DNA of 64,000 nt from contig JAHBVO010000002.1 of the NCBI GenBank assembly GCA_019637435.1, forward strand, positions 907,519-971,518. The letters are read 5' to 3'. Of the stretch, positions 47,706 to 60,028 are shown piece by piece. Under the pieces are notes generated by a model. That model was not told where the DNA came from. It did no database searches and saw nothing but the letters and a program-made list of their open reading frames with translations. The stretch is from Candidatus Obscuribacterales bacterium. Lineage in GTDB: Bacteria; Cyanobacteriota; Vampirovibrionia; Obscuribacterales; Obscuribacteraceae. Each line of letters starts with the position of its first letter. Positions within the stretch are counted from its first letter, which is position 1. A program made the translations under genes and the position numbers.

Positions 47706-48854
47706 CTATTTGGCAGCAACGGCTTCTTTCTTCTTGACGCTTGCCGTCAGCTTTTCCAGTTCCACCAGAATTGCATTCGTCATCTCAACCGTACCAACCA
47801 GTTTCTCCTCGTCTTTTGATTTGGTATCGCTGGTAGTGCGCTTGATGTCGGATGTTCTGTAACCGGCTTTCAATGCAGCCTCGACTGCATCTTCGATTGC
47901 TCTGGCTTCTTGCTCCAGACCGAAAGAATAGCGAAGCAACAGCGCGGCTGAAAGAATCTGCGCAATTGGATTGGCAATTCCCTTTCCTGCAATGTCTTGC
48001 GCGCTGCCACCAGGCGGCTCGTAGAGTCCGAAACCGCTATCATTCATGCTCGCAGATGCGCACAGTCCGAGTGAACCCGGCAGTGCCGCCGCGGCATCCG
48101 AAAGAATGTCGCCAAACATATTTGATGTGACTATCACATCAAATTGACCCGGATCTCTGATGAGTTGCATTGCGCAGTTGTCGACCAGCATGTCTTCAAG
48201 CTGCACGTCCGGGTATTCTGAGGAAACTTCTTTTACAACTTCTCTCCAGAGTCTCGAAGCAGTAAGCACATTCGCCTTGTCGACGGAAGTCAATCTTTTT
48301 CCGCGTAGTCTGGCGGCTTTGAAACCTGCATGAGCCGCGGTTCTCACTTGATCTTCCGTGTACTCTGATTCGTCCTGAGCGAATCGAATTCCGTTGCGCT
48401 CGCCGCGTTCATGACGACCGAAATATGCATCGCCGAGAAGTTCGCGAACGATGAGCATGTCGACGCCCTTCTCGAGCACTTCTGCTTTCAATGGACAGAT
48501 GCCTTCCATGCCTTTATAAACTTTAGCGGGGCGCAGATTGACCGCGAAGTTGAAAGTCTTGCGGAGTGTCAGAATCGAATTCCTTTCGCAATCCACCCAC
48601 TTTGGCAAATGCATTTCGTTGATCGGTCCACCTACGGAGCCAAACAGAATCGCGTCACTCGCCTTGCAAACATCCAGCGTTTCTTGCGGCAAGTGCGCTC
48701 CATATTTTTCGTAGGCGGCACCGCCGGCGACACCTTCATTGATGCGAAATTCGTGACCAAATTTATCAGCGACGACTTCGAGCACTCTAAGTGCTTCCTT
48801 CATCACCTCTGGTCCGATTCCGTCGCCCGGAAGAACTGCTATAGTCCGTTGCAT
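47706..48854 (-). CDS. leuB: 3-isopropylmalate dehydrogenase
   Basis: 382 aa. Oxidises and decarboxylates 3-isopropylmalate to 2-ketoisocaproate with NAD; in an organism with CimA it would also act on the methylmalate intermediate of isoleucine synthesis. Marks: IAVLPGDGIGPEVMKEAL, LRKTFNFAVNLRPAKVY, IVRELLGDAYFG, VDNCAMQLIRDPGQFDVIVT and MFGDILSDAAAALPGSLGLC in order. The last 30 residues (EKLTASVKKKEAVAAK) are a charged extension. Last gene of the ilvD...leuB unit; 8 bases follow leuD. Confidence 0.96.
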   Translation of the reverse strand: MQRTIAVLPGDGIGPEVMKEALRVLEVVADKFGHEFRINEGVAGGAAYEKYGAHLPQETLDVCKASDAILFGSVGGPINEMHLPKWVDCERNSILTLRKTFNFAVNLRPAKVYKGMEGICPLKAEVLEKGVDMLIVRELLGDAYFGRHERGERNGIRFAQDESEYTEDQVRTAAHAGFKAARLRGKRLTSVDKANVLTASRLWREVVKEVSSEYPDVQLEDMLVDNCAMQLIRDPGQFDVIVTSNMFGDILSDAAAALPGSLGLCASASMNDSGFGLYEPPGGSAQDIAGKGIANPIAQILSAALLLRYSFGLEQEARAIEDAVEAALKAGYRTSDIKRTTSDTKSKDEEKLVGTVEMTNAILVELEKLTASVKKKEAVAAK

Positions 48855-48862
48855 TTTAACCT

Positions 48863-49507
48863 CTAGTTTTTTGTACCCGCTAATGCCAAATTCTCTTCAT
48901 TAGAATTAGAAGGTGAAACCGTCCAACTCTTAGCGTTTCGAGTCCGAAACTCGTCTATTTCCGACTGGTGGGACAGAATATAGTTAATGTCGTCGAGTCC
49001 GTTGAGCAAACAATGTTTTCTGAAGGGGTCGTACTCGAAAGAATGTTTTTCGGTCGTTAGACCCTCTTTTACCAGCACTACCTGATTCTCCAGGTCCACG
49101 GTGACGAATAAATCATCTTTCTCCGCTCGCTTGAGCAATCTTTCAATCACCGCTTTCGGTAGTGAAACCAATAACAATCCGTTCTTGGCGCTGTTATTCG
49201 AGAAGATGTCTGCGAAACTTTCGGCGATCACAACTTTGAAATTCGCACCAGCGATCGCCCAGACTGCGTGCTCGCGTGACGAGCCGCATCCGAAGTTGTA
49301 GCCGGTCAGCAATATTTCCGCATCCTTGTACCGGTCCTGATTGAGTGGAAAATCCGGTTCTGTGTCTCGCAGTCTGCGAAAGAGGTTTTGACCATAGCCG
49401 TCCCTTGAGGTGCTGGTCAGATATTGGGCCGGAATTATTTGATCCGTGTCTACATCATTCTTGGGCAACGGAACTACTTTCGATGTCAGTGTCTCGTATT
49501 TTTTCAT
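48863..49507 (-). CDS. leuD: 3-isopropylmalate dehydratase small subunit
   Basis: 214 aa. Partner of LeuC in the isomerisation of 2- to 3-isopropylmalate and probably of citramalate to 3-methylmalate. Marks: VVPLPKNDVDTDQIIPAQYL, ILLTGYNFGCGSSREHAVWA, VVIAESFADIFSNNSAKNGLL and the Leu/Asn-rich C-terminal FRKHCLLNGLDDINYIL. Length and motif order are typical of the bacterial LeuD. 15 bases from leuC. Confidence 0.95.
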   Translation of the reverse strand: MKKYETLTSKVVPLPKNDVDTDQIIPAQYLTSTSRDGYGQNLFRRLRDTEPDFPLNQDRYKDAEILLTGYNFGCGSSREHAVWAIAGANFKVVIAESFADIFSNNSAKNGLLLVSLPKAVIERLLKRAEKDDLFVTVDLENQVVLVKEGLTTEKHSFEYDPFRKHCLLNGLDDINYILSHQSEIDEFRTRNAKSWTVSPSNSNEENLALAGTKN

Positions 49508-49522
49508 TTCTGATTGCCTGCC

Positions 49523-51004
49523 TTATAGATATTTCGCTGCTGATGAGATACGACCTGCGATAGCACTGGCTGCCACCGTAGCTGGTGACGCCAGGTGTGT
49601 GATGCTGTCTGGACCTTGTCTGCCCATGAAGTTTCGGTTGGAGCTGGAAACGCAACGCTCGCCAGGCGGAACGCGGTCATCATTCATGCTCAGACACATC
49701 GAGCAGCCCGGCATTCTGAATTGAGCACCTGCTTCTTCGAATACTTTATCCAGTCCCTCTTTCATCGCTTGTTCGCGAACTGATTCAGAACCAGGGACGA
49801 CATACATGGTCACGCCGCTGGCAACTTTGTTGCCCTTGAGTATGCTTGCAGCAATTCGCAGATCCTCGATTCGTCCGTTCGTGCAAGAACCGACAAATGC
49901 CCATTGGAATGGCAAGCCTTCGATCGATTTGCCAGCGTCGACCTTTGTGTAAGCGAGCGCGGCCTCGAGGTCTTTGCGTTCGAGTTCCGGAAGTGATTTC
50001 GGACTTGGGACCGGCTGTCCGAGTTCGCAACCCTGGCTTGGGTTTGTCCCCCAGGTCACCATCGGGTCAAGCTGATCGAGGTCAATTACGACTTCCTTGT
50101 CGTAGGCGGCATCTTTATCAGTCTTCAAAGAGTTCCAATACTCGACAGCTTTCAAGAATTGGCTGTCCGGTGGCGCTAAGCGGCGACCGCGAAGGTAATC
50201 ATAAGTCACCCTATCCGGTGCGATAAGACCGGCGCGAGCACCACATTCGATGCTCATGTTGCAGATGGTCATGCGTTCTTCCATCGACATTTTAGAGATT
50301 GCTTCTCCGGTGTATTCGATGACGTGACCGTTTGCACCGCCGACTCCGATGATCGAAATCAGTTTCAAAATCGCATCTTTCGAATAGACGCCTTTCTTCA
50401 ACTTACCTTTGAACTCGACTTTCATTGACTTTGGTGCTTCCTGCAGTAGACAGCCGGTCGCCATGACGTGCGCGACCTCGGACGTGCCGACGCCAAATGC
50501 GAGTGCTCCGAAGGCACCATGGGTGGAGGTATGCGAGTCACCACATACGATGGTCATGCCTGGTTGAGTGACACCAAGCTCCGGTCCGATAACGTGGACG
50601 ATGCCCTGGTTGCCACTGTCGAAATCCATGAATGGGACGCCGTGACGTTTGCAGTTGGCACGCAGGGTTTCGACTTGCGAACGAGCCGCTTCGTCATAGA
50701 TCTCGTATCTATTCTGTCTGGTCGGAATGCTGTGATCGATTGTGGCGAGCAATCTCTCTGGATTGGCGATTTTCAATCCGCGCGACTCGATTGTTTGAAA
50801 TGCCTGTGCCGAAGTAACTTCGTGCAAAAGCATCAAGTCGATAGCAAAGATGGCGGGATGCCCTTCTTGCTGGCTGACGACGTGACTGTCCCAAATCTTC
50901 TGGACAATGTTTCTCGGCTGTTTTGCCATTGCGTTCGGCGTCTGGACTTCAGACTCACCGGTTTTATGTTTCTTAGGCTTAGACGTAGACTTGACCTGCG
51001 ACAT
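49523..51004 (-). CDS. leuC: 3-isopropylmalate dehydratase large subunit
   Basis: 493 aa from ATG 51004, whose A is the last base of the cimA stop (TAATG), with AGGAGG ten bases upstream. Aconitase-family [4Fe-4S] enzyme; the cluster cysteines are in FVGSCTNGRIEDLR and PGCSMCLSMN. Other marks: HVIGPELGVTQPGMTIVCGD in register with SHTSTHGAFGALAFGVGTSE, and MSIECGARAGLIAPD. A Lys-rich N-terminal tail (STSKPKKHKTGE) is unusual. The one-base overlap with cimA implies translational coupling. Confidence 0.95.
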   Translation of the reverse strand: MSQVKSTSKPKKHKTGESEVQTPNAMAKQPRNIVQKIWDSHVVSQQEGHPAIFAIDLMLLHEVTSAQAFQTIESRGLKIANPERLLATIDHSIPTRQNRYEIYDEAARSQVETLRANCKRHGVPFMDFDSGNQGIVHVIGPELGVTQPGMTIVCGDSHTSTHGAFGALAFGVGTSEVAHVMATGCLLQEAPKSMKVEFKGKLKKGVYSKDAILKLISIIGVGGANGHVIEYTGEAISKMSMEERMTICNMSIECGARAGLIAPDRVTYDYLRGRRLAPPDSQFLKAVEYWNSLKTDKDAAYDKEVVIDLDQLDPMVTWGTNPSQGCELGQPVPSPKSLPELERKDLEAALAYTKVDAGKSIEGLPFQWAFVGSCTNGRIEDLRIAASILKGNKVASGVTMYVVPGSESVREQAMKEGLDKVFEEAGAQFRMPGCSMCLSMNDDRVPPGERCVSSSNRNFMGRQGPDSITHLASPATVAASAIAGRISSAAKYL

Positions 51005-52617
51005 TACGCAACAACCTCCTGGGTTTCTTGGACTTGTACTGAAGATGAACATCTGGCTAGATAAAGTTCGAGACTGTCGACCAACGCCTGGCAGCTTGCT
51101 TCAATGATGTTGTCGGAAACTCCGACTGTCGACCAGCGCTCTTCATCGTTTGCTGCTTCGATCACAACGCGAGTTGTCGCTTCTGTTGCTTGATCAGGGT
51201 CGAGAATTCTGACTTTATAGTCGACCAGTCTGACGTTCTCGATTTGTGGATAAACCGGTGCGAGCGCTTTGCGGAATGCATTGTCGAGTGCATGCACCGG
51301 ACCCCGTCCTACGGAGACGGTGTGGTGAACAGTGTCTCCGACTTTGACTTTGACCACGGCTTCGGCGGAGCTACCCTGACCGATGCGATCGTTGACCACC
51401 ACCATGATCTCGATCAGCTCGAATGGTGTCACATACTGAGGATCGTCGCGTCTGATCATCAATTCGACGCTGCCCTGCGCATCTTCGAATTTGTAGCCCT
51501 TCTGCTCCAGTTCTTTTATCCGGTCGAGAACTTCCTGTTCCGCGAACGGCATTTTTCCTGAAATTTGCGACGCCAACAGTCTCACGTTTCCTCTTCCGGA
51601 CAATTCTGATATCAGAATCTCTCGTGTATTGCCGACGAGTTCCGGCTGCATATGCTCGTAACTGGCTGCGAACTTTTCGACAGCAGCAGCGTGTAATCCG
51701 GCTTTGTGAGCAAATGCGGCTGACCCCACATATGGTGCATAGGGATCCGGGCTCAAATTTGCGATTTCGCTGACGGTTCTGGAAAGCTCGGTCAATCTGA
51801 CCAGGCTCTTTTGAGGAACGCATTGGTAGCCCATCTTGAGCTGAAGTGTTGGCGCCAACGAGATGAGATTTGCGTTTCCGCAGCGCTCGCCGTAACCGTT
51901 TATAGTCCCTTGAATCTGTTTAGCACCGGCTTCGACCGCAGCAATCGAATTGGCCACGGCAAGTTCACCGTCGTTGTGAGCATGAATTCCGAGCGGAACA
52001 CTCACAACCGCATTGGTTTGCGCAACTATTTCTCTGATTCTGCTTGGGATGTGTCGACCGTTGGTGTCGCATAGCACGAGCCAATCGGCACCGGCTTCCT
52101 GAGCTGCCAGAAGCGCCTTCAACGAATACTCCTGATCTTCTTCGAATCCATCGAAATAGTGCTCAGCATCGAAAATTACTTCCTTGCCATGGCTCTTCAA
52201 ATAGCTGATGCTATCTTTGATCATCTCGAGATTCTCTTCGAGAGTGGTGCGGAGAACTTTGAGCACGTGTTTGGAAGATGATTTACCGACAAGGGCTACG
52301 CAATCGGTTCCGGCTTCAAGAAGTCTTGCGGTGTTCTGATCTTCGGCAGCAGTTACTCCCGCCTTTCTGGTGCTTCCAAAAGCCACAACGCGAGCGTGTT
52401 TCAATCGCATTGATTTGACGCGCTGGAAATACTCGAAATCCTTCGGGTTGGAACCTGGCCAGCCGCCTTCGATGTAACTCACACCGAAATCGTCCAGCAA
52501 CTTGGTAATTTTAAGTTTGTCTTCGAGAGAAAAACTGATTCCTTTTCTCTGGGCGCCATCACGCAAGGTTGTGTCATACAGCACGACTTGATTGTGTTGG
52601 GTATTGCTCAGTTTCAT
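51004..52617 (-). CDS. cimA: (R)-citramalate synthase
   Basis: 537 aa. Condenses pyruvate and acetyl-CoA to (R)-citramalate, the first step of the threonine-independent isoleucine route. Marks: DTTLRDGAQRKGISFSLEDK, the CimA-type YIEGGWPGSNPKDFEYF, metal-binding HAHND, NGYGERCGNANL, and a C-terminal LeuA-type regulatory domain (VVVNDRIGQGSSAEAVVKVK, ARVYPQIENVRLVDYKVRI-like end). The GGWPGSNPKD segment and length separate it from LeuA (58159) in the same window. Its place between ilvN and leuC supports isoleucine synthesis via LeuCD and LeuB. Confidence 0.94.
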   Translation of the reverse strand: MKLSNTQHNQVVLYDTTLRDGAQRKGISFSLEDKLKITKLLDDFGVSYIEGGWPGSNPKDFEYFQRVKSMRLKHARVVAFGSTRKAGVTAAEDQNTARLLEAGTDCVALVGKSSSKHVLKVLRTTLEENLEMIKDSISYLKSHGKEVIFDAEHYFDGFEEDQEYSLKALLAAQEAGADWLVLCDTNGRHIPSRIREIVAQTNAVVSVPLGIHAHNDGELAVANSIAAVEAGAKQIQGTINGYGERCGNANLISLAPTLQLKMGYQCVPQKSLVRLTELSRTVSEIANLSPDPYAPYVGSAAFAHKAGLHAAAVEKFAASYEHMQPELVGNTREILISELSGRGNVRLLASQISGKMPFAEQEVLDRIKELEQKGYKFEDAQGSVELMIRRDDPQYVTPFELIEIMVVVNDRIGQGSSAEAVVKVKVGDTVHHTVSVGRGPVHALDNAFRKALAPVYPQIENVRLVDYKVRILDPDQATEATTRVVIEAANDEERWSTVGVSDNIIEASCQALVDSLELYLARCSSSVQVQETQEVVA

Positions 52618-52712: not shown

Positions 52713-53081
52713 TTAGAGCCCAATCTGGCTGGTCGTTAGTTCGAATGATTGAAACGATGGATGTGGTTCGAACGACGTGACGTGTTTTCTTTCCGGGTGA
52801 TGTTGAACGTGGGGACGAGCCTGCTGGTGGTGCGCCGGATGGTGCTCTTCTGCCGCCCGTATTTCTACTCCAGCAACGTCGATCAGTTTATTCAACTGCT
52901 TGATCGCCAGCTCAATTGCTTTTGTGCTTTCGACTGTGACTTTTACGTCCATACGGGCGAAGTTTGCACTAGTGTTGGCGTTTAAACCGCACACCGTGAA
53001 GTTGCGCTGGCGCAGTCTGCCGAGAAGGCGTTCTAATGCTCCCTCGGTGTTTGCCATCGTGACGTCTAGTGTGAATCTCAT
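52713..53081 (-). CDS. ilvN: Acetolactate synthase small (regulatory) subunit, ACT domain, His-rich tail
   Basis: 122 aa from ATG 53081, which overlaps the ilvB stop as ATGA and has GGAGGA nine bases upstream; a longer frame to 53138 is not needed. A single ACT domain ([40 protein letters not shown]) as in short IlvM/IlvN subunits, which confer feedback inhibition by valine. Residues 80-107 form an extension with nine His ([16 protein letters not shown]). That tail is not part of the family and might bind metal or simply be a linker. No second ACT-like domain. Confidence 0.85.
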
Positions 53082-54736
53082 ACAGTTGCTTCCTCCAACA
53101 TTTCTGAATTGTTTTTGCCTGGTGGCACCAATGGCCACACATTGGCGGCGGTGTCGATAATTACGTGTACGAAGAGAGGACCTTCCTCCGTCAATATTCT
53201 GGTGATTGCGTCTGAAACTTCCGAGCGTTTCTCTACGCGGAAAGATGGTATGCCGAAAGCGTCGGCGACCTTGGCGAAGTCCGGGTTGTCGGAGAGGTCG
53301 ACTTCGCTGTAGCGCTTTTCAAAGAAAAGTTCCTGCCACTGACGCACCATCCCCAGTGCCGAGTTGTCGAATAAAACGATTTTGATCGGCAAGTTATAAC
53401 GTTTGATCGTTGCCAATTCCTGCACATTCATCATGAAGGAACCGTCTCCGGATACGCAGACTACGCGCGATTCCGGGCTTGCAAGCTGGGCGCCGATTGC
53501 TGCTGGAAGTCCGAAGCCCATCGTGCCCAAACCGCCACTGGTCAGGTGATTATTCGGCATGTCGAATGACACATGCTGAGCTACCCACATCTGGTGTTGA
53601 CCGACATCGCAGGAGACAATGGTGTTTTCTTCTCCTTTCGAGCGGTCGCTCAACTCTTTGAGAAAACTTGGAGCGTAGACGAGTTCGCCTGGCGCATCGT
53701 ATTTAAACTGGAATTGCTCTTTGCGTTGCATGCAGGTTGAAACCCATTCATCAATTTCAAGCTCAGCGTGCAAGAAGTTTAATGAAACCTTGATATCGCC
53801 GACGATACCGCAATCAGCTGCTCGCATTTTTGATACTTCGCACGGATCTCCGTCCATGTGAACTACACGTGCATGAGGTGCGAACTCGGCGAGTTTGCCG
53901 GTGACGCGGTCGTCGAATCGAGCGCCGACTGCGATGAGCAGGTCGCATTCTTGTACCGCCATATTTGCGGCACGTGTCCCATGCATTCCGAGCATGCCGA
54001 GACAAAGTTCGTGATCTCCTTGAATAGAGCCGATTCCATGCAGAGTCGTCACGCACGGCATGCCGCATGCTTCGACGAAAGCGCGAAGTTCCTCTGTTGC
54101 GCCAGCGATGCGAACACCGCCGCCTGCGTATACCAGCGGTTTCTTCGCTTCTTGAATCATGGCTCTGGCCGTCGCAAGCTGTTTTGCTTCACCTCTGCTC
54201 AACAATTCGACCTGGTTGCCGTTGAATTGGGGATTAGGTAAGTCCGCTACGGTGATATTCTTCGGAAGGTCGATGAGTACCGGTCCGGGACGACCCGAGC
54301 GTGCAATTTTGAACGCTTTCGCTACCGTGTCGGCAAGGTCTTCAATGCGACGCACCAGGAAGCTATGTTTCACAACCGGCATCGAGATGCCGAAAATATC
54401 CACTTCCTGGAATGCGTCGGTGCCGATGTAAGCGGCTGGAACTTGTCCGGTGATTGCCACCATTGGGACTGAGTCGAGAAAAGCGTTGGCGATTCCCGTG
54501 ATCAAATTGGTCGCTCCTGGACCGGAAGTTGCAAGGCACACGCCCACCTTACCGGTGACACGAGCATAAGCATCGGCGGCAAGCGCTGCTGCCTGCTCGT
54601 GTCTAACCAGTATGTGTTTGAGTTGCGAATCATACAGAGCGTCGTAGACCGGCATGATTGCTCCGCCCGGGTAACCGAAGATGGTGTCGACACCTTCGGC
54701 TTCTAACGCTTTGATGAGTATTTCGCTGCCTTTCAT
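53078..54736 (-). CDS. ilvB: Acetolactate synthase large (catalytic) subunit
   Basis: 552 aa. ThDP-dependent synthesis of 2-acetolactate (valine/leucine) and 2-aceto-2-hydroxybutyrate (isoleucine). Marks: [17 protein letters not shown], catalytic Glu in [19 protein letters not shown]/substrate region [20 protein letters not shown], and the ThDP motif [19 protein letters not shown] with Mg ligands around [13 protein letters not shown]. Length is usual. It overlaps ilvN by four bases. Confidence 0.96.
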
Positions 54737-54847: not shown

Positions 54848-55918
54848 TCAGCGTGCCGCAACTGGTTCTTTTTCTTTCTGTGCCTGCTCAGACTGGCACG
54901 ATTGCTTTGCAGCATTATCCGCGCAAGACTGATTGAGCCAGGACATATTTGCACGGAGTTCCTTACCAACCTTTTCGATCGGGTGGGCGAGGTCTTTTGC
55001 GAGCAATTCATTGTATTTCGGCTTGCCTGCTTTGTTTTCTGCGATCCACTCGCGAGCGAATGTGCCGTTTCTGACTTCTTCGAGAACTTCCTTGATGTTC
55101 TTGCGGGCGTGAGCGTCGATGACGCGCGGTCCACGGCTGAGGTCGCCGTACTTGGCAGTTTCGGAAACGAATTCGTGCATGCGAGCGAAGCCGCCTTCAT
55201 AGATAAGATCGACGATCAACTTCAATTCGTGCAAGCACTCGAAGTATGCAACTTCCGGCTGATAGCCTGCTTCTACGAGCGTTTCATAACCAGCCGCGAC
55301 CAGTTCCGTCACTCCACCGCAGAGAACTGCTTGTTCTCCGAAGAGGTCTGTTTCGGTTTCTTCCGCAAAGGTGGTTTCAAGAACCGAAGCTCTGGTGCCG
55401 CCCAATCCATGAGCGTATGCAAGTGCTTTTTTGAACGCGTTGCCGGTAGCGTCTTGTTGCACTGCCACCAGGCATGGTACTCCGCGACCTTCCTGATATT
55501 GCGAGCGCACCAGACGTCCGGGCGATTTGGGTGCGATCAAAACGACGTCTACATCTGCTTGCGGCTTGATTTCGCCATAGTGGACGTTGAAGCCGTGGGC
55601 GAAGAGAACCGTCGCGCCTTTCTTCAAGTTCGGCTCGACTTCTTTCGTGTAAAGCTCGGGCTGGGATGTATCGGGCGTGAGAATAGCGACTAGGTCAGCG
55701 TCCTTGACGGCTTCTGCGACGGTCGCAACTTTCAAACCGTCTTCTTTGGCTTGCTTCCAGGTCTTTCCACCTTCTCTCAAACCAACTACGACGTTCAATC
55801 CGCTATCGTGCAAGTTCATCGCTTGTGCGCGACCCTGGCTTCCGTAGCCGACTACGGCAACTTTCTTGCCTTGCAGTGCTGATGTATCAACGTCTTTCTC
55901 TGTGTAAACCTTTGCCAT
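54848..55918 (-). CDS. ilvC: Ketol-acid reductoisomerase
   Basis: 356 aa, class I enzyme. NADPH- and Mg-dependent isomerisation/reduction of acetolactate and acetohydroxybutyrate. Rossmann motif [21 protein letters not shown], cofactor-specificity loop [35 protein letters not shown], metal ligands in the helical domain ([34 protein letters not shown]). A 20-residue Gln/Lys/Glu tail is extra. Second gene of the attenuated unit. Confidence 0.96.
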
Positions 55919-55976: not shown

Positions 55977-57656
55977 TCATCCGACGCCCGTCGGCACCTT
56001 CTTCTTTTGCGGAAGCCAGGTGACCGCGCCGTCCGATGCGGATGAAACTAATTGCGCGTATTTTGCAAACACGCCTGATTTGTATTTGGGCTCCTTCTCC
56101 TGCCAGCCACTGACGCGGGCAGCGAGGTCGCCGTCGACGTTCATAACTCTGTTCTCAACATCGATTGTCACAACGTCGCCGTCACGGATGAAAGCGATCG
56201 GTCCGCCACGAGCCGCTTCCGGCGAGACGTGTCCAACCATGAATCCGTGCGTTGCTCCTGAAAATCTTCCATCGGTTACGAGCGCGACTTGACCGCCGAG
56301 ACCAGCTCCGATCAAGGCACCTGTCACAGCGAGCATTTCTGGCATGCCAGGGGCGCCTTTCGGTCCGACGTTTCTGATCACAACGACATCACCGGCGGTG
56401 ATAAGCCCTTGTTGAACTGCGATGAACGCTTGATCTTCCTCGTCGAAAACGCGAGCTGGTCCTTTGAAAGTGAGGCTGGCGTTGCCGGCTACTTTGACTA
56501 CGCAACCTTCCGGTGCAAGCGAACCATGGAGAATCGCGAAACCGCCGCGCGGAGCGAGTGCGTTTTCGACTGAGCGGACAACCTTCTGACCTTCGGTCGC
56601 CTTTGCTTCGGCAGCTTCTTCGAAGAGAGTCTTCCCTGAAACGGTTTTCTCATCAGCGATTAGATTTGCTGCCCGAAGCTCTTTAGCGATTAAACGCATG
56701 CCACCGGCTTCGTACAGATCGTTCGCGACGTATCTGCCCCACGGTTTGAAGTCGACGATGATTGGCGTAGCGCCGGAGATGCGGTCGAAATCCGAAAGTT
56801 CGAGATCGACGCCGAGCTCTCTGGCGATTGCCATTATGTGAAGAACTGCGTTTGTCGAGCCGCCTGTAGCCGCGACTGACGCGATTGCGTTTTCCAAAGC
56901 TCTCTTGGTCATGACCGAACTGACGCGAACATTTTTCTCGAGCAGCTCCATCACCAGCTCGCCGCAACGCTCTGCTTGAGCTAGTTTTGACGGATGTGTT
57001 GCTGGCACCTCATTTACACCAAACGGCGAGATCCCCATAAAGGTCGCCGCCGTTGACATGGTGTTTGCAGTGAATTGCCCGCCGCATGCGCCTGCGCCAG
57101 GACATGCTTTATTCTCCAAATCATTCAAGTCTTCCGGCGTCATAAGACCGGCTGCGCAAGCTCCGACTGCCTCGAAAACTTCCTGGATGGTGACGTCTTT
57201 GCCCTGGAATTGTCCGGGCATGATCGAGCCGCCATAAAGAAGAACTGATGGGAGGTCGAGTCTGGCGAGCGCCATGATCGCGCCCGGTATGGTTTTATCG
57301 CATCCAGCTATGGCGACGACAGCGTCGAAGAGGTGACCGCGGACCGCGACTTCTATCGAATCGGCAACCACTTCACGCGAAACCAGCGATGCTTTCATCG
57401 CTTCCGTTCCCATGGAGATGCCGTCGGATACTACGATTGTATTGAATTCGAAAGGCGTGCCACCGGCTTTGCGGATACCGTCTTTGACTTTCTGGGCGAG
57501 GTCTCTGAGATGGAAATTGCAGGGACCGGCTTCTGTCCAGGTGTTCGCTACCGCGACGAGCGGTTTCTCAAGATCGGCGTCTGTGAGACCGGTTGCTTTG
57601 AGCATTGCTCTTGCCGGCGCTCTGTTCAATCCCTTCTTTATTCGGTCGCTTTCCAT
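55977..57656 (-). CDS. ilvD: Dihydroxy-acid dehydratase
   Basis: 559 aa. Fe-S dehydratase making the 2-keto acid precursors of valine and isoleucine. Marks: [21 protein letters not shown] in register, [20 protein letters not shown], cluster Cys in [38 protein letters not shown] and [19 protein letters not shown]. First structural gene of the ilvD-ilvC-ilvB-ilvN-cimA-leuC-leuD-leuB unit. Its mRNA leader carries a terminator and an Ile/Val/Leu-rich leader peptide. Confidence 0.96.
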
Positions 57657-57746: not shown

Positions 57747-57780
57747 AAAAACCCCGTACCTTTTGCGTTAGGTACGGGGT
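57747..57780 (-). terminator. Attenuator terminator in the ilvD leader
   Basis: On the minus strand ACCCCGUACC (57780-57771) pairs with GGUACGGGGU (57760-57751): 10 perfect base pairs around a 10-base loop, followed by a U-run of five (57751-57747). It lies 22 bases after the leader-peptide stop and about 90 bases before ilvD. Confidence 0.9.
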
Positions 57781-57822
57781 CTGAAGTCTTGAGTATTTCG
57801 CTCTAACTAGGCAGCCCGCACC
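57771..57822 (-). promoter_or_regulatory. Antiterminator of the ilvD leader (alternative pairing)
   Basis: GGUGCGGG (57822-57815), inside the last codons of the leader peptide, can pair with CCCGUACC (57778-57771), the 5' arm of the terminator, as 8 bp with one G-U pair. It imitates the terminator's own 3' arm, so the two structures exclude each other. A third hairpin, CUGGUAC/GUACCAG (57844-57824), lies just upstream within the peptide coding region and may act as a pause structure. Confidence 0.75.
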
Positions 57823-57883
57823 GCTGGTACAGAATCAGTACCAGGCTAATAATTACGATGTTAATAAGAGCAACGCTGAACAT
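57803..57883 (-). CDS. ilvL: ilv leader peptide (Ile/Val/Leu-rich, 26 aa)
   Basis: ATG 57883 to TAG 57803. Residues 4-18 read VALINIVIISLVLIL, 12 of 15 being Ile, Val or Leu, followed by YQRCGLPS. Composition, length and position in front of a terminator match the leader peptides of ribosome-mediated ilv attenuators in enterobacteria. A longer frame starting at ATG 57946 or 57943 (47 aa, with AGGGG upstream) exists, but those ATGs fall in the likely -10 element TATGAT, so the short peptide is favoured. The alternative reading as a small membrane protein cannot be excluded but fails to explain the downstream RNA elements. Confidence 0.82.
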   Translation of the reverse strand: MFSVALINIVIISLVLILYQRCGLPS

Positions 57884-57941
57884 TGGTTTAGCCGTTTCTT
57901 TTATTTCCTGGGCGGGTGCCCTGTGTGTTTGACGTGTGTCC

Positions 57942-57969
57942 ATCATATCTGACCCCTGTAATAGGTCAA
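57942..57969 (-). promoter_or_regulatory. Promoter of the ilvL-ilvD...leuB unit
   Basis: On the minus strand TTGACC (57969-57964), 16-base spacer, TATGAT (57947-57942), each hexamer with one mismatch to consensus. Transcription would begin near 57935, giving a short 5' UTR of about 50 bases before ATG 57883. Confidence 0.65.
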
Positions 57970-58158: not shown

Positions 58159-59814
58159 TTAGGAGGCTTGCGGAATGCGCTGCACTGCCGGTGCCGCGAA
58201 CTCTTCTTGCTTCTTCGCCGCCGCCTTCATCGAGTATTCCCGGTACACGTAGGCCTTGTTAACCGCATCGATCAATGCGCGCATGGCTGAGATTTCAATG
58301 TCGTGGTCGTGTGCCGTTCCCTCGAACTGCGCGCCATCCTCCAACTGCACGATTATCTGCGAGACGCTCTTTGCGTTTTCGCCCTTTGAATCGGAACGGC
58401 TTGAGTGGCTGATGATTTTGTATGGACCAAATCGAGTTTCGATCAATTTTTTCAAAGCCGCCAAAGCCGAGTCCTGTCCGCTGTGGTCGGCGGAGTATTG
58501 ACCCTCGTCTCCGAAGAATTGACCCATGATCGTTACTGAAGACCGGTCTCCCTCGCGACCGTAGTCGACTGTTTCAATAGTCATAGGCTGGCGGTACTCA
58601 TTGTAGATGCGCATCAATTCGCGATCGGCGATTCCTTTTCTGCGCTCTTTGCTCTTATCTTTGATGAACTGAGCGATAGCCGCTTTTTCGTTTTCCTCGC
58701 AAATGTAGCCGTTGCTTTCGATAATCGAGCGGGCGTGGTTGCCACCACTGAGCGGACCGAAAGCAAATGTGATGTTTTTGCCGATGGAGCGTGGATCGAA
58801 TGGCTGGTACGCCATTGGATTTTTGAGAATGGCATTTGTGTGACCGCCGGATGAGTGACGTGCGGCGTTTTCACCGGTGACGGGCGAGTGAGGCTGACGC
58901 GGCAACATATGTTGATCGACGAAGTCCGAGATCTCTTGAATGACGTCGACATTCGAGTCGCAGTGGAAGGGCTGCTTCTGCTGCGCGCCGAACTGGCGAA
59001 TGATCATGATGCACTGCTCGAGAGACGCGTTGCCGGCGCGCTCACCGATTCCATTGACACAACCTTCGATTTGAAGTGCCGGCCCGTTGAAAACACCGTT
59101 GATGCTATTTTGCACAGCCAATCCAAGGTCGTTGTGGCAGTGGACAGACCAGATTACTTCGCGTTCCGGAAACTCGCGCGCGATAATCTCAGCGTGTTGG
59201 TTCATCTTCTCGACGAAGTACTCGGATCCTTCAAGTGAGGACGCACCACCAATGGTATCCGGGCAATTGATTACGCGCGCGCCTGCTGAAACTGCGGCGC
59301 GAATCAAATCGGTTGTGAAATCGAAGTTTTCACGCATTCTGGAATAGCCTTCCGGGCTGAACTGAACTTCAAGACCGGCATCGTAAGCCATTTTTACGAG
59401 GCGATAAACATCATCTACAATCTTGCTCTTATCGGCGGCATGCCCGCCAAGCGAGGCTTCCAGCAATTCCGGATCGACAGGAACGTAGGTGTGAAGCCGT
59501 CCTTTACCGATGGCGATAACCGGTTCCAAGGCCTGAATGGTTTTCACAACCTGCTCTTCTCTCAATTGACAGAGCGCAGCTATCTTCGGCTGAAAGCTCT
59601 GGTTGAGGTTTTCCTTCGCGATCGCGTTCACGATCTCAAAATCAAGATTGCTTGCCGACGGAAAGCCTGCTTCGATTACGTCGACTTGCAGCTGACACGC
59701 GAGACGAAAGTATTCGATGTTCTTATCGAAGCTCATCCCTGCCCCCGGGCACTGTTGCCCGTCTCTTAAGGTTGTGTCGAAAATTTCTACCTTTTGAGAT
59801 TTACGCTGTGTCAT
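58159..59814 (-). CDS. leuA: 2-isopropylmalate synthase
   Basis: 551 aa from ATG 59814, with AAGGA eight bases upstream. First committed step of leucine synthesis: acetyl-CoA plus 2-ketoisovalerate. Marks: IFDTTLRDGQQCPGAGMSFD, VDVIEAGFPSASNLDFE, INCPDTIGGASSLEGSEYF, metal ligands in SVHCHNDLGLAVQNS and NGIGERAGNASLEQCI, and a C-terminal regulatory domain (VSQIIVQLEDGAQFEGTAHD). Distinguished from CimA by the EAGFPSASN segment and by the leucine-coded leader in front. Expressed separately from the ilvD unit, whose promoter lies downstream of its stop. Confidence 0.94.
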   Translation of the reverse strand: MTQRKSQKVEIFDTTLRDGQQCPGAGMSFDKNIEYFRLACQLQVDVIEAGFPSASNLDFEIVNAIAKENLNQSFQPKIAALCQLREEQVVKTIQALEPVIAIGKGRLHTYVPVDPELLEASLGGHAADKSKIVDDVYRLVKMAYDAGLEVQFSPEGYSRMRENFDFTTDLIRAAVSAGARVINCPDTIGGASSLEGSEYFVEKMNQHAEIIAREFPEREVIWSVHCHNDLGLAVQNSINGVFNGPALQIEGCVNGIGERAGNASLEQCIMIIRQFGAQQKQPFHCDSNVDVIQEISDFVDQHMLPRQPHSPVTGENAARHSSGGHTNAILKNPMAYQPFDPRSIGKNITFAFGPLSGGNHARSIIESNGYICEENEKAAIAQFIKDKSKERRKGIADRELMRIYNEYRQPMTIETVDYGREGDRSSVTIMGQFFGDEGQYSADHSGQDSALAALKKLIETRFGPYKIISHSSRSDSKGENAKSVSQIIVQLEDGAQFEGTAHDHDIEISAMRALIDAVNKAYVYREYSMKAAAKKQEEFAAPAVQRIPQAS

Positions 59815-59856: not shown

Positions 59857-59886
59857 AAAAAAGCCCTGCCTTTGATAAGACAGAGC
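59857..59886 (-). terminator. Attenuator terminator in the leuA leader
   Basis: On the minus strand GCUCUGUC (59886-59879) pairs with GGCAGGGC (59870-59863), 8 bp with two G-U pairs, 8-base loop, followed by UUUUUU (59862-59857). It ends 43 bases before the leuA start. Confidence 0.82.
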
Positions 59887-59914
59887 AGATACGCAACATC
59901 GTCCGGCTCTGTCT
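59878..59914 (-). promoter_or_regulatory. Antiterminator of the leuA leader (alternative pairing)
   Basis: AGACAGAGC (59914-59906), which starts inside the leader-peptide stop codon, pairs perfectly over 9 bases with GCUCUGUCU (59886-59878), the 5' arm of the terminator. This stem and the terminator exclude each other. A ribosome at the stop codon would cover AGACAGAGC and allow termination; one stalled at the leucine codons would leave it free. Confidence 0.8.
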
Positions 59915-59993
59915 AGCAGGTGCTTAGCAGCAGCAGTCCCAGCAGTGATGCGGGGCGATTCGATTGATTCAAAACTGTTTCGTTGATGGACAT
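59913..59993 (-). CDS. leuL: leu leader peptide (26 aa, leucine run)
   Basis: ATG 59993 to TAG 59913, 26 aa: it starts MSINETVLNQSNRPA and ends SLLGLLLLSTC. Six leucine codons (five CTG, one CTA) fall within seven codons near the end, the pattern of leuL peptides of ribosome-mediated attenuation. It lies 98 bases before the terminator's end to leuA and is followed at once by the antiterminator/terminator sequences. Ribosome-binding site is weak (GGAAG at 12 bases); the predicted promoter would even make the message start at the ATG. Confidence 0.85.
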   Translation of the reverse strand: MSINETVLNQSNRPASLLGLLLLSTC

Positions 59994-59999
59994 GACACA

Positions 60000-60028
60000 G
60001 TTGTACTTCCGATTCGAGGTTGAGTCAA
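60000..60028 (-). promoter_or_regulatory. Candidate promoter of leuL-leuA
   Basis: On the minus strand TTGACT (60028-60023), 17-base spacer, TACAAC (60005-60000). If used, transcription starts at or within two bases of the leuL ATG (59993), a nearly leaderless message. A second AT-rich area (60070-60100, TATATAT repeated) could hold another promoter. Confidence 0.5.

Follow-up and report, generated by a model that had tools for sequence, protein, structure and literature searches.

A probable ribosome-mediated attenuator before the ilvD-leuB genes of a non-photosynthetic cyanobacterial relative, with sister leaders at other amino-acid loci

The window, a stretch of 64,000 nucleotides, carries on its minus strand a run of branched-chain amino-acid genes, ilvD-ilvC-ilvB-ilvN-cimA-leuC-leuD-leuB, preceded by a short leader region at 57747-57969 (Table 1). 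Because the intergenic gaps are short (from overlap up to about 110 nt) and no terminator-like site was found on the minus strand from ilvD through leuB, the eight genes are likely co-transcribed; they are exactly the pathway cognate to the leader. A leuA-like gene sits upstream of this leader, outside the ilv switch and behind a second leader about 2.1 kb from the first.

Table 1. Positions of the leader elements and genes in the window, and loci of the His and Trp leaders.
Feature	Position or locus	Strand	Remarks
ilv leader promoter TTGACC-16-TATGAT	57942..57969	minus	recurs in relatives
ilv leader peptide ORF, 26 codons, MFSVALINIVIISLVLILYQRCGLPS	57803..57883	minus	ATG at 57883, stop TAG 57805-57803
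P1 hairpin CUGGUAC/GUACCAG, within control codons, adjoining segment 2	57824..57844	minus	covariation
Segment 2, antiterminator 5' strand, GGUGCGGG, codons 21-23	57815..57822	minus	pairs with segment 3
Segment 3, terminator 5' arm and antiterminator 3' strand, ACCCCGUACC	57771..57780	minus	covariation
Segment 4, terminator 3' arm, GGUACGGGGU and U tract	57747..57760	minus	covariation
ilvD, first gene of predicted operon	55977..57656	minus	NCBIfam TIGR00110, above cutoff
ilvC	54848..55918	minus	NCBIfam TIGR00465, above cutoff
ilvB, acetolactate synthase large subunit	53078..54736	minus	NCBIfam TIGR00118, above cutoff
ilvN/ilvM-like small subunit	52713..53138	minus	NF008362, 65.1 bits, just below cutoff 68
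cimA, citramalate synthase	51004..52617	minus	NCBIfam TIGR00977, above cutoff
leuC	49523..51052	minus	NCBIfam TIGR00170, above cutoff
leuD	48863..49507	minus	NCBIfam TIGR00171, above cutoff
leuB	47706..48854	minus	NCBIfam TIGR00169, above cutoff
leuA leader promoter TTGACT-17-TACAAC	60000..60028	minus	ATG begins 7 nt past last -10 base
leuA leader peptide ORF MSINETVLNQSNRPASLLGLLLLSTC, stop TAG, Leu only	59913..59993	minus	conserved in relatives
leuA leader segment 2, ACAGAGCC, directly 3' of stop codon	59905..59912	minus	pairs with segment 3
leuA leader terminator GCUCUGUC/GGCAGGGC and U6	59857..59886	minus	covariation
leuA-like 2-isopropylmalate synthase	58159..59814	minus	best models 2-isopropylmalate synthase, below curated cutoffs
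His leaders with terminators	L221 (G000:C5), L219, L220, L222, L225-L229, L231-L233, L236		upstream of hisG, family
Trp leaders (WW, WWxW) with terminators	L297 (G000:C6), L267, L270-L273, L277, L283, L290		upstream of trpE
Trp leaders with terminators, continued	L291, L293, L294, L302-L304		upstream of trpE

Inspection of the sequence recovers every element that the initial annotation had named for the ilv leader. The promoter (57969-57942, minus strand) is followed by a predicted 5' UTR of roughly 50 nt and a 26-codon frame in which Ile, Val and Leu make up 12 of residues 4-18, against a background of 22% for these residues across ten neighbouring genes. About 20 nt beyond the frame lies the 10-bp terminator, a stem of ACCCCGUACC/GGUACGGGGU (57780-57751) running into a U tract to 57747, with a computed energy of -20.1 kcal/mol; its five U include a first one that is paired. 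The 8-base segment described as imitating the terminator's 3' arm, GGUGCGGG, indeed pairs with the 5' arm over 8 bp, one of them G-U. The leader RNA scores z = -3.9 against dinucleotide shuffles and beats all but one of 200. A strong Shine-Dalgarno site is missing from the window's leader; AAGGA or AGGA occurs in several relatives. An alternative in-frame reading of 47 codons (ATGATG at 57948, with AGGGG before it) was rejected in favour of the 26-codon frame because relatives conserve the -10 box that it overlaps but not the upstream extensions. An Rfam search of the entire window matched no family, T-box and riboswitches included.

The nearest named record to the window's IlvD belongs to Candidatus Obscuribacter sp. 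MP9P1 (87% identity), of a genus placed in Obscuribacteraceae, Candidatus Melainabacteria. The term family is used here for the group of genomes (f1) that includes the window's own (G000), equated with Obscuribacteraceae by inference from the MP9P1 match. A search of named genome records returned mostly distant bacteria, with L061 and L062 as the only relatives. Within the family, ilvD is present in 21/50 genomes, and a covariance model of the ilv leader (R2) finds it in exactly these (21/21, E 1e-17 or better); family genomes without ilvD yield no R2 match above noise. About 29 family genomes, several of them >95% complete, are without ilvD and also without the leader, and the absence of both from over half of the sampled family suggests branched-chain amino-acid auxotrophy.

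At ilvD, the leader scan is positive for 17/18 family loci versus 0/30 loci from elsewhere in the phylum, mostly photosynthetic cyanobacteria. Ten ilvD loci from other families of the same class, inspected by eye, have no ilv-type leader. Run over 339 genomes of the phylum, the ilv model gave weak matches only; L179, L180, L181, L184 and L186, when opened, had no ILV-rich leader, and a weak match in G072 (L178) proved to be a leader rich in Phe that precedes a DAHP synthase. Each of the 19 leaders examined in full combines a frame of the same kind (24-27 codons, opened by ATG, GTG or TTG, with 9-14 Ile/Val/Leu ahead of segment 2) with a terminator, and a promoter with TTGAC spaced 16 bp from a TATNNT-like -10 lies upstream of nearly all of them. 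Alignment of ilvD leaders in relatives, the check proposed in the initial annotation, finds the ILV-rich frame, terminator and antiterminator kept together wherever ilvD is held; the pattern it had set against its own reading, a frame without terminator and antiterminator or a hairpin without a frame, is not seen in these relatives.

Covariation is strongest in the ilv terminator, where 90.6% of cells are paired (35-59% in slid registers) and 6/12 pairs have changed on both sides, in 20 cells, a result reached by 0/500 shuffles with kinship ignored; one position occurs as C-G, G-C, G-U and A-U. Segments 2 and 3 are paired in 87.6% of cells, against 38-59% when slid, and compensatory changes in this antiterminator are limited to two pairs, a modest covariation because both segments are nearly invariant. 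In one genome (L035), GUGCGG has become GUGUGG and both terminator arms have changed along with it. The 3' end of the ORF pairs with its own terminator arm at a lower energy than the shuffle mean in 19/19 leaders (mean z -2.8, kinship ignored; individual p from 0.003 to 0.15), and the nucleotides of segment 2 are conserved while the residues that they encode change (Arg/Trp/Gly-Cys/Ser-Gly). In P1, 9 cells have changed on both sides, matched by 0/500 shuffles, and its stability relative to codon-order shuffles has a mean z of -2.1 (kinship ignored in both cases); P1 is probably a pause hairpin.

The geometry of the leader was explored with a folding model in which a ribosome masking 12 nt past the A-site codon is moved along the ilv leader. 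The antiterminator probability is about 0.95 to codon 16, 0.65 at codon 17, 0.04 at codon 18 and 0 thereafter, and this modelled switch point coincides with the end of the Ile/Val/Leu run. Segment 2 begins 7 nt from the last ILV codon in 14/19 leaders and 9-10 nt from it in the remainder, a spacing that, together with the masked folding, would fit codon-specific stalling. In a full-equilibrium model the terminator wins in every state (P about 1), so the choice would have to be made kinetically, as it is in known attenuators. With no ribosome in the model the antiterminator forms all the same, and P1 coexists with the antiterminator in folding and does not exclude it. In the window the 5' GGGCACCCGC could pair with segment 2 and hide it, but this pairing is not conserved in relatives, and across the leaders compared no conserved 1:2 hairpin was found that would hide segment 2 without translation. 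The enterobacterial ilv layout invoked by the initial annotation is matched in leader, terminator and antiterminator, but not in a conserved sequestering 1:2 hairpin. The sequence elements, their conservation, covariation and geometry, and the predicted folding are all observed or computed features of these leaders.

Taken together, the region is very probably a classical ribosome-mediated transcription attenuator, because the terminator and P1 covary, the distance from control codons to antiterminator is nearly fixed, and predicted folding switches at codons 17-18. RNA polymerase would initiate near 57935, with a ribosome following behind to translate the 26-codon leader. A shortage of charged tRNA for Ile, Val or Leu would stall this ribosome at codons 4-17 and leave segment 2 free to pair with segment 3, preventing the terminator and allowing ilvD-leuB to be transcribed. 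When Ile, Val and Leu are all plentiful, the ribosome would reach the stop codon and cover segment 2, and segments 3 and 4 would form the terminator and stop transcription at about 57747. Leader translation, actual termination and the response to amino acids are what we infer from sequence; the masked folding and the near-fixed spacing agree, computationally, with the original proposal that stalling at Ile/Val/Leu codons frees segment 2.

The initial annotation had further proposed that one switch controls eight genes for all three amino acids. The eight cognate genes do lie downstream, but leuA stands outside and appears from its sequence to have an attenuator of its own, Leu-only, which had been missed. 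A Leu-rich leader of 25-33 aa is present in 17/18 family leuA loci examined and missing in G026, and a covariance model (R3) finds the leuA leader in most ilv-leader genomes, plus G023. The latter genome keeps leuA and its leader, and no ilvD was found in it. In the leuA leader 99% of cells keep segments 2 and 3 paired, and 4 cells show compensatory changes; the terminator of this leader is paired in 95.6%, with 10 cells changed on both sides (0/500 shuffles, kinship ignored). Because the gap between the -10 hexamer and the leader ATG is nearly constant (6 nt in 16/17 leaders), the transcript would start on the start codon, and the leuA leader peptide is probably encoded on a leaderless mRNA.

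Comparable leaders stand before other amino-acid genes. The leader scan finds His leaders at 13/30 hisG loci (MNLAVDAHGHHHHHHVFRRSGLNG in the window's genome), Trp leaders at 14/30 trpE loci (MMTTNTANAQNWWTWCNLVDEPRWRW in the window's genome) and Phe/Tyr leaders at DAHP synthases. Crossed controls are nearly empty: His criteria match 0/60 trp and DAHP loci, Trp criteria match 1/60 his and DAHP loci, and 150 random window pieces give 0-1 matches. Among photosynthetic cyanobacteria, 27 hisG loci gave 1 weak match in the scan. A WWR..PGK pattern is repeated in many of the Trp leaders. A DAHP synthase of the window's genome (L299, G000:C1:656200-657200) is preceded by tandem leaders, MRNFGFFWFSEVHPG and MSNKGFWFFAFRVPGR, with a terminator each; tandem Phe/Tyr-rich leaders before DAHP synthase also occur at L258, L260 and L309. 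Before another DAHP synthase, at L310 and L311 (G001, G002), lies a leader with a run of Tyr (MSARRYYYYYPNEVHPQ; YYYY, YYYYY) and a terminator; a leader-peptide attenuator that senses Tyr would be unusual. In another family of the same class (f7), 3/3 loci of one DAHP synthase type have leaders such as NSYYFFWFYLNHAGGR with terminators, and with them attenuation, as predicted from sequence, reaches beyond the window's family. The f7 leaders (L317, L318, L319), all before DAHP synthase, are rich in Phe, Tyr and Trp. Compared with Rfam, 0/15 leader loci match a leader family, T-box or riboswitch.

It is reasonably likely, if less secure than the reading of the ilv leader itself, that Melainabacteria run an attenuation regulon of their own, comprising ilv, leu, his and trp leaders, separate Phe-sensing and Tyr-sensing leaders at DAHP synthase isoenzymes (a tandem pair in the window's genome) and a family-wide leaderless leu leader, and that it arose independently of proteobacterial attenuators.

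The sister leaders also bear on other explanations of the ilv region. Attenuation might operate with no codon-specific sensing, the leader merely coupling ribosome traffic to read-through; Streptomyces ilvB offers a precedent, as altering its regulatory codons reportedly had no effect and codon sensing there is disputed (PMC1262725), and the ilv leaders do lack a conserved protector hairpin. Yet in these genomes the leaders of five pathways all keep strictly to their cognate codons, and the placing of the ILV run relative to segment 2 fits codon-specific stalling, which leaves this explanation a slim chance. A slimmer one attaches to the proposal that the leader frame is the gene of a stable membrane protein with a single span, the hairpin being either the end of that gene's own transcript or a terminator with no connection to it. 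Its marked hydrophobicity could allow the peptide to cross a membrane, but it was not found apart from ilvD, its start codon varies among ATG, GTG and TTG, and its I, V and L interchange freely while the GGUGCGGG nucleotides persist through residue changes; nor would a membrane protein explain His-, Trp-, Leu- and Phe/Tyr-rich leaders that match their downstream pathways. Least probable is a riboswitch, T-box or protein-binding leader RNA that governs the terminator with the ORF incidental: a terminator and an upstream covarying hairpin are riboswitch parts too, but Rfam gives no match to any such element, nearly all that is conserved between promoter and terminator is the ORF, the P1 within it and segment 2, and the distance from codons to segment 2 is fixed.

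The predicted ilv attenuation is new here in lineage, not in mechanism. Before the survey of Naville and Gautheret, which added Firmicutes, leader peptides were known only from Proteobacteria and Actinobacteria (Naville and Gautheret, 2010; PMC2965389), and a 2016 paper from a group surveying attenuation states that there are no reliable data for cyanobacteria (PMC4833913). A literature search covering few subscription journals did not find Obscuribacter together with an attenuator. The initial annotation had called the finding new outside Proteobacteria and Actinobacteria; this claim is narrowed to the lineage, the non-photosynthetic cyanobacterial relatives, because Listeria already provides a demonstrated case of ilv attenuation (Rli60) and Staphylococcus a reported one, with a leucine-rich attenuator peptide (PMC5794164).

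Codon-cognate attenuators at several amino-acid loci in Melainabacteria would extend ribosome-mediated attenuation to a deep-branching lineage, make amino-acid control predictable in organisms known mostly from metagenome assemblies, and imply transcription-translation coupling there. With leaders nearly absent at ilvD and hisG in photosynthetic cyanobacteria, gain, loss or convergence becomes a question that sequence can answer. The larger regulon, of which the ilv switch is one part, merits study of its own.

The enterobacterial ilvGMEDA and leuABCD leaders combine an ILV-rich or Leu-rich peptide with a terminator and a mutually exclusive antiterminator. The leaders described here likewise pair a cognate-rich peptide with a terminator and a mutually exclusive antiterminator; they differ in having no Rfam leader match and no conserved 1:2 protector hairpin, and in placing the ilv and leu leaders about 2.1 kb apart in one locus. 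The actinobacterial ilvB leaders of Corynebacterium, Mycobacterium and Streptomyces share a short frame with an Ile/Val/Leu run and a terminator before branched-chain genes (PMC1262725, PMC11857589), but in those leaders the frame extends into the terminator hairpins, whereas here it ends about 20 nt before the terminator. The start codon of Sinorhizobium meliloti trpL lies at the transcript 5' end, as predicted for the leuA leader (PMC7298713); that system is a Trp leader of Alphaproteobacteria, and the ilv leader here, unlike it, has roughly 50 nt of 5' UTR. In Listeria monocytogenes, ribosome-mediated attenuation has been demonstrated for Rli60, which precedes ilvD in the ilv-leu operon, and the likeness is one of layout: a leader peptide of branched-chain codons, a 2:3 antiterminator and a 3:4 terminator ahead of ilvD (PMC5864092). 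Rli60 belongs to Firmicutes and is combined with CodY, whereas the switch described here lies in Candidatus Melainabacteria, where leuA is split off under a separate predicted Leu attenuator.
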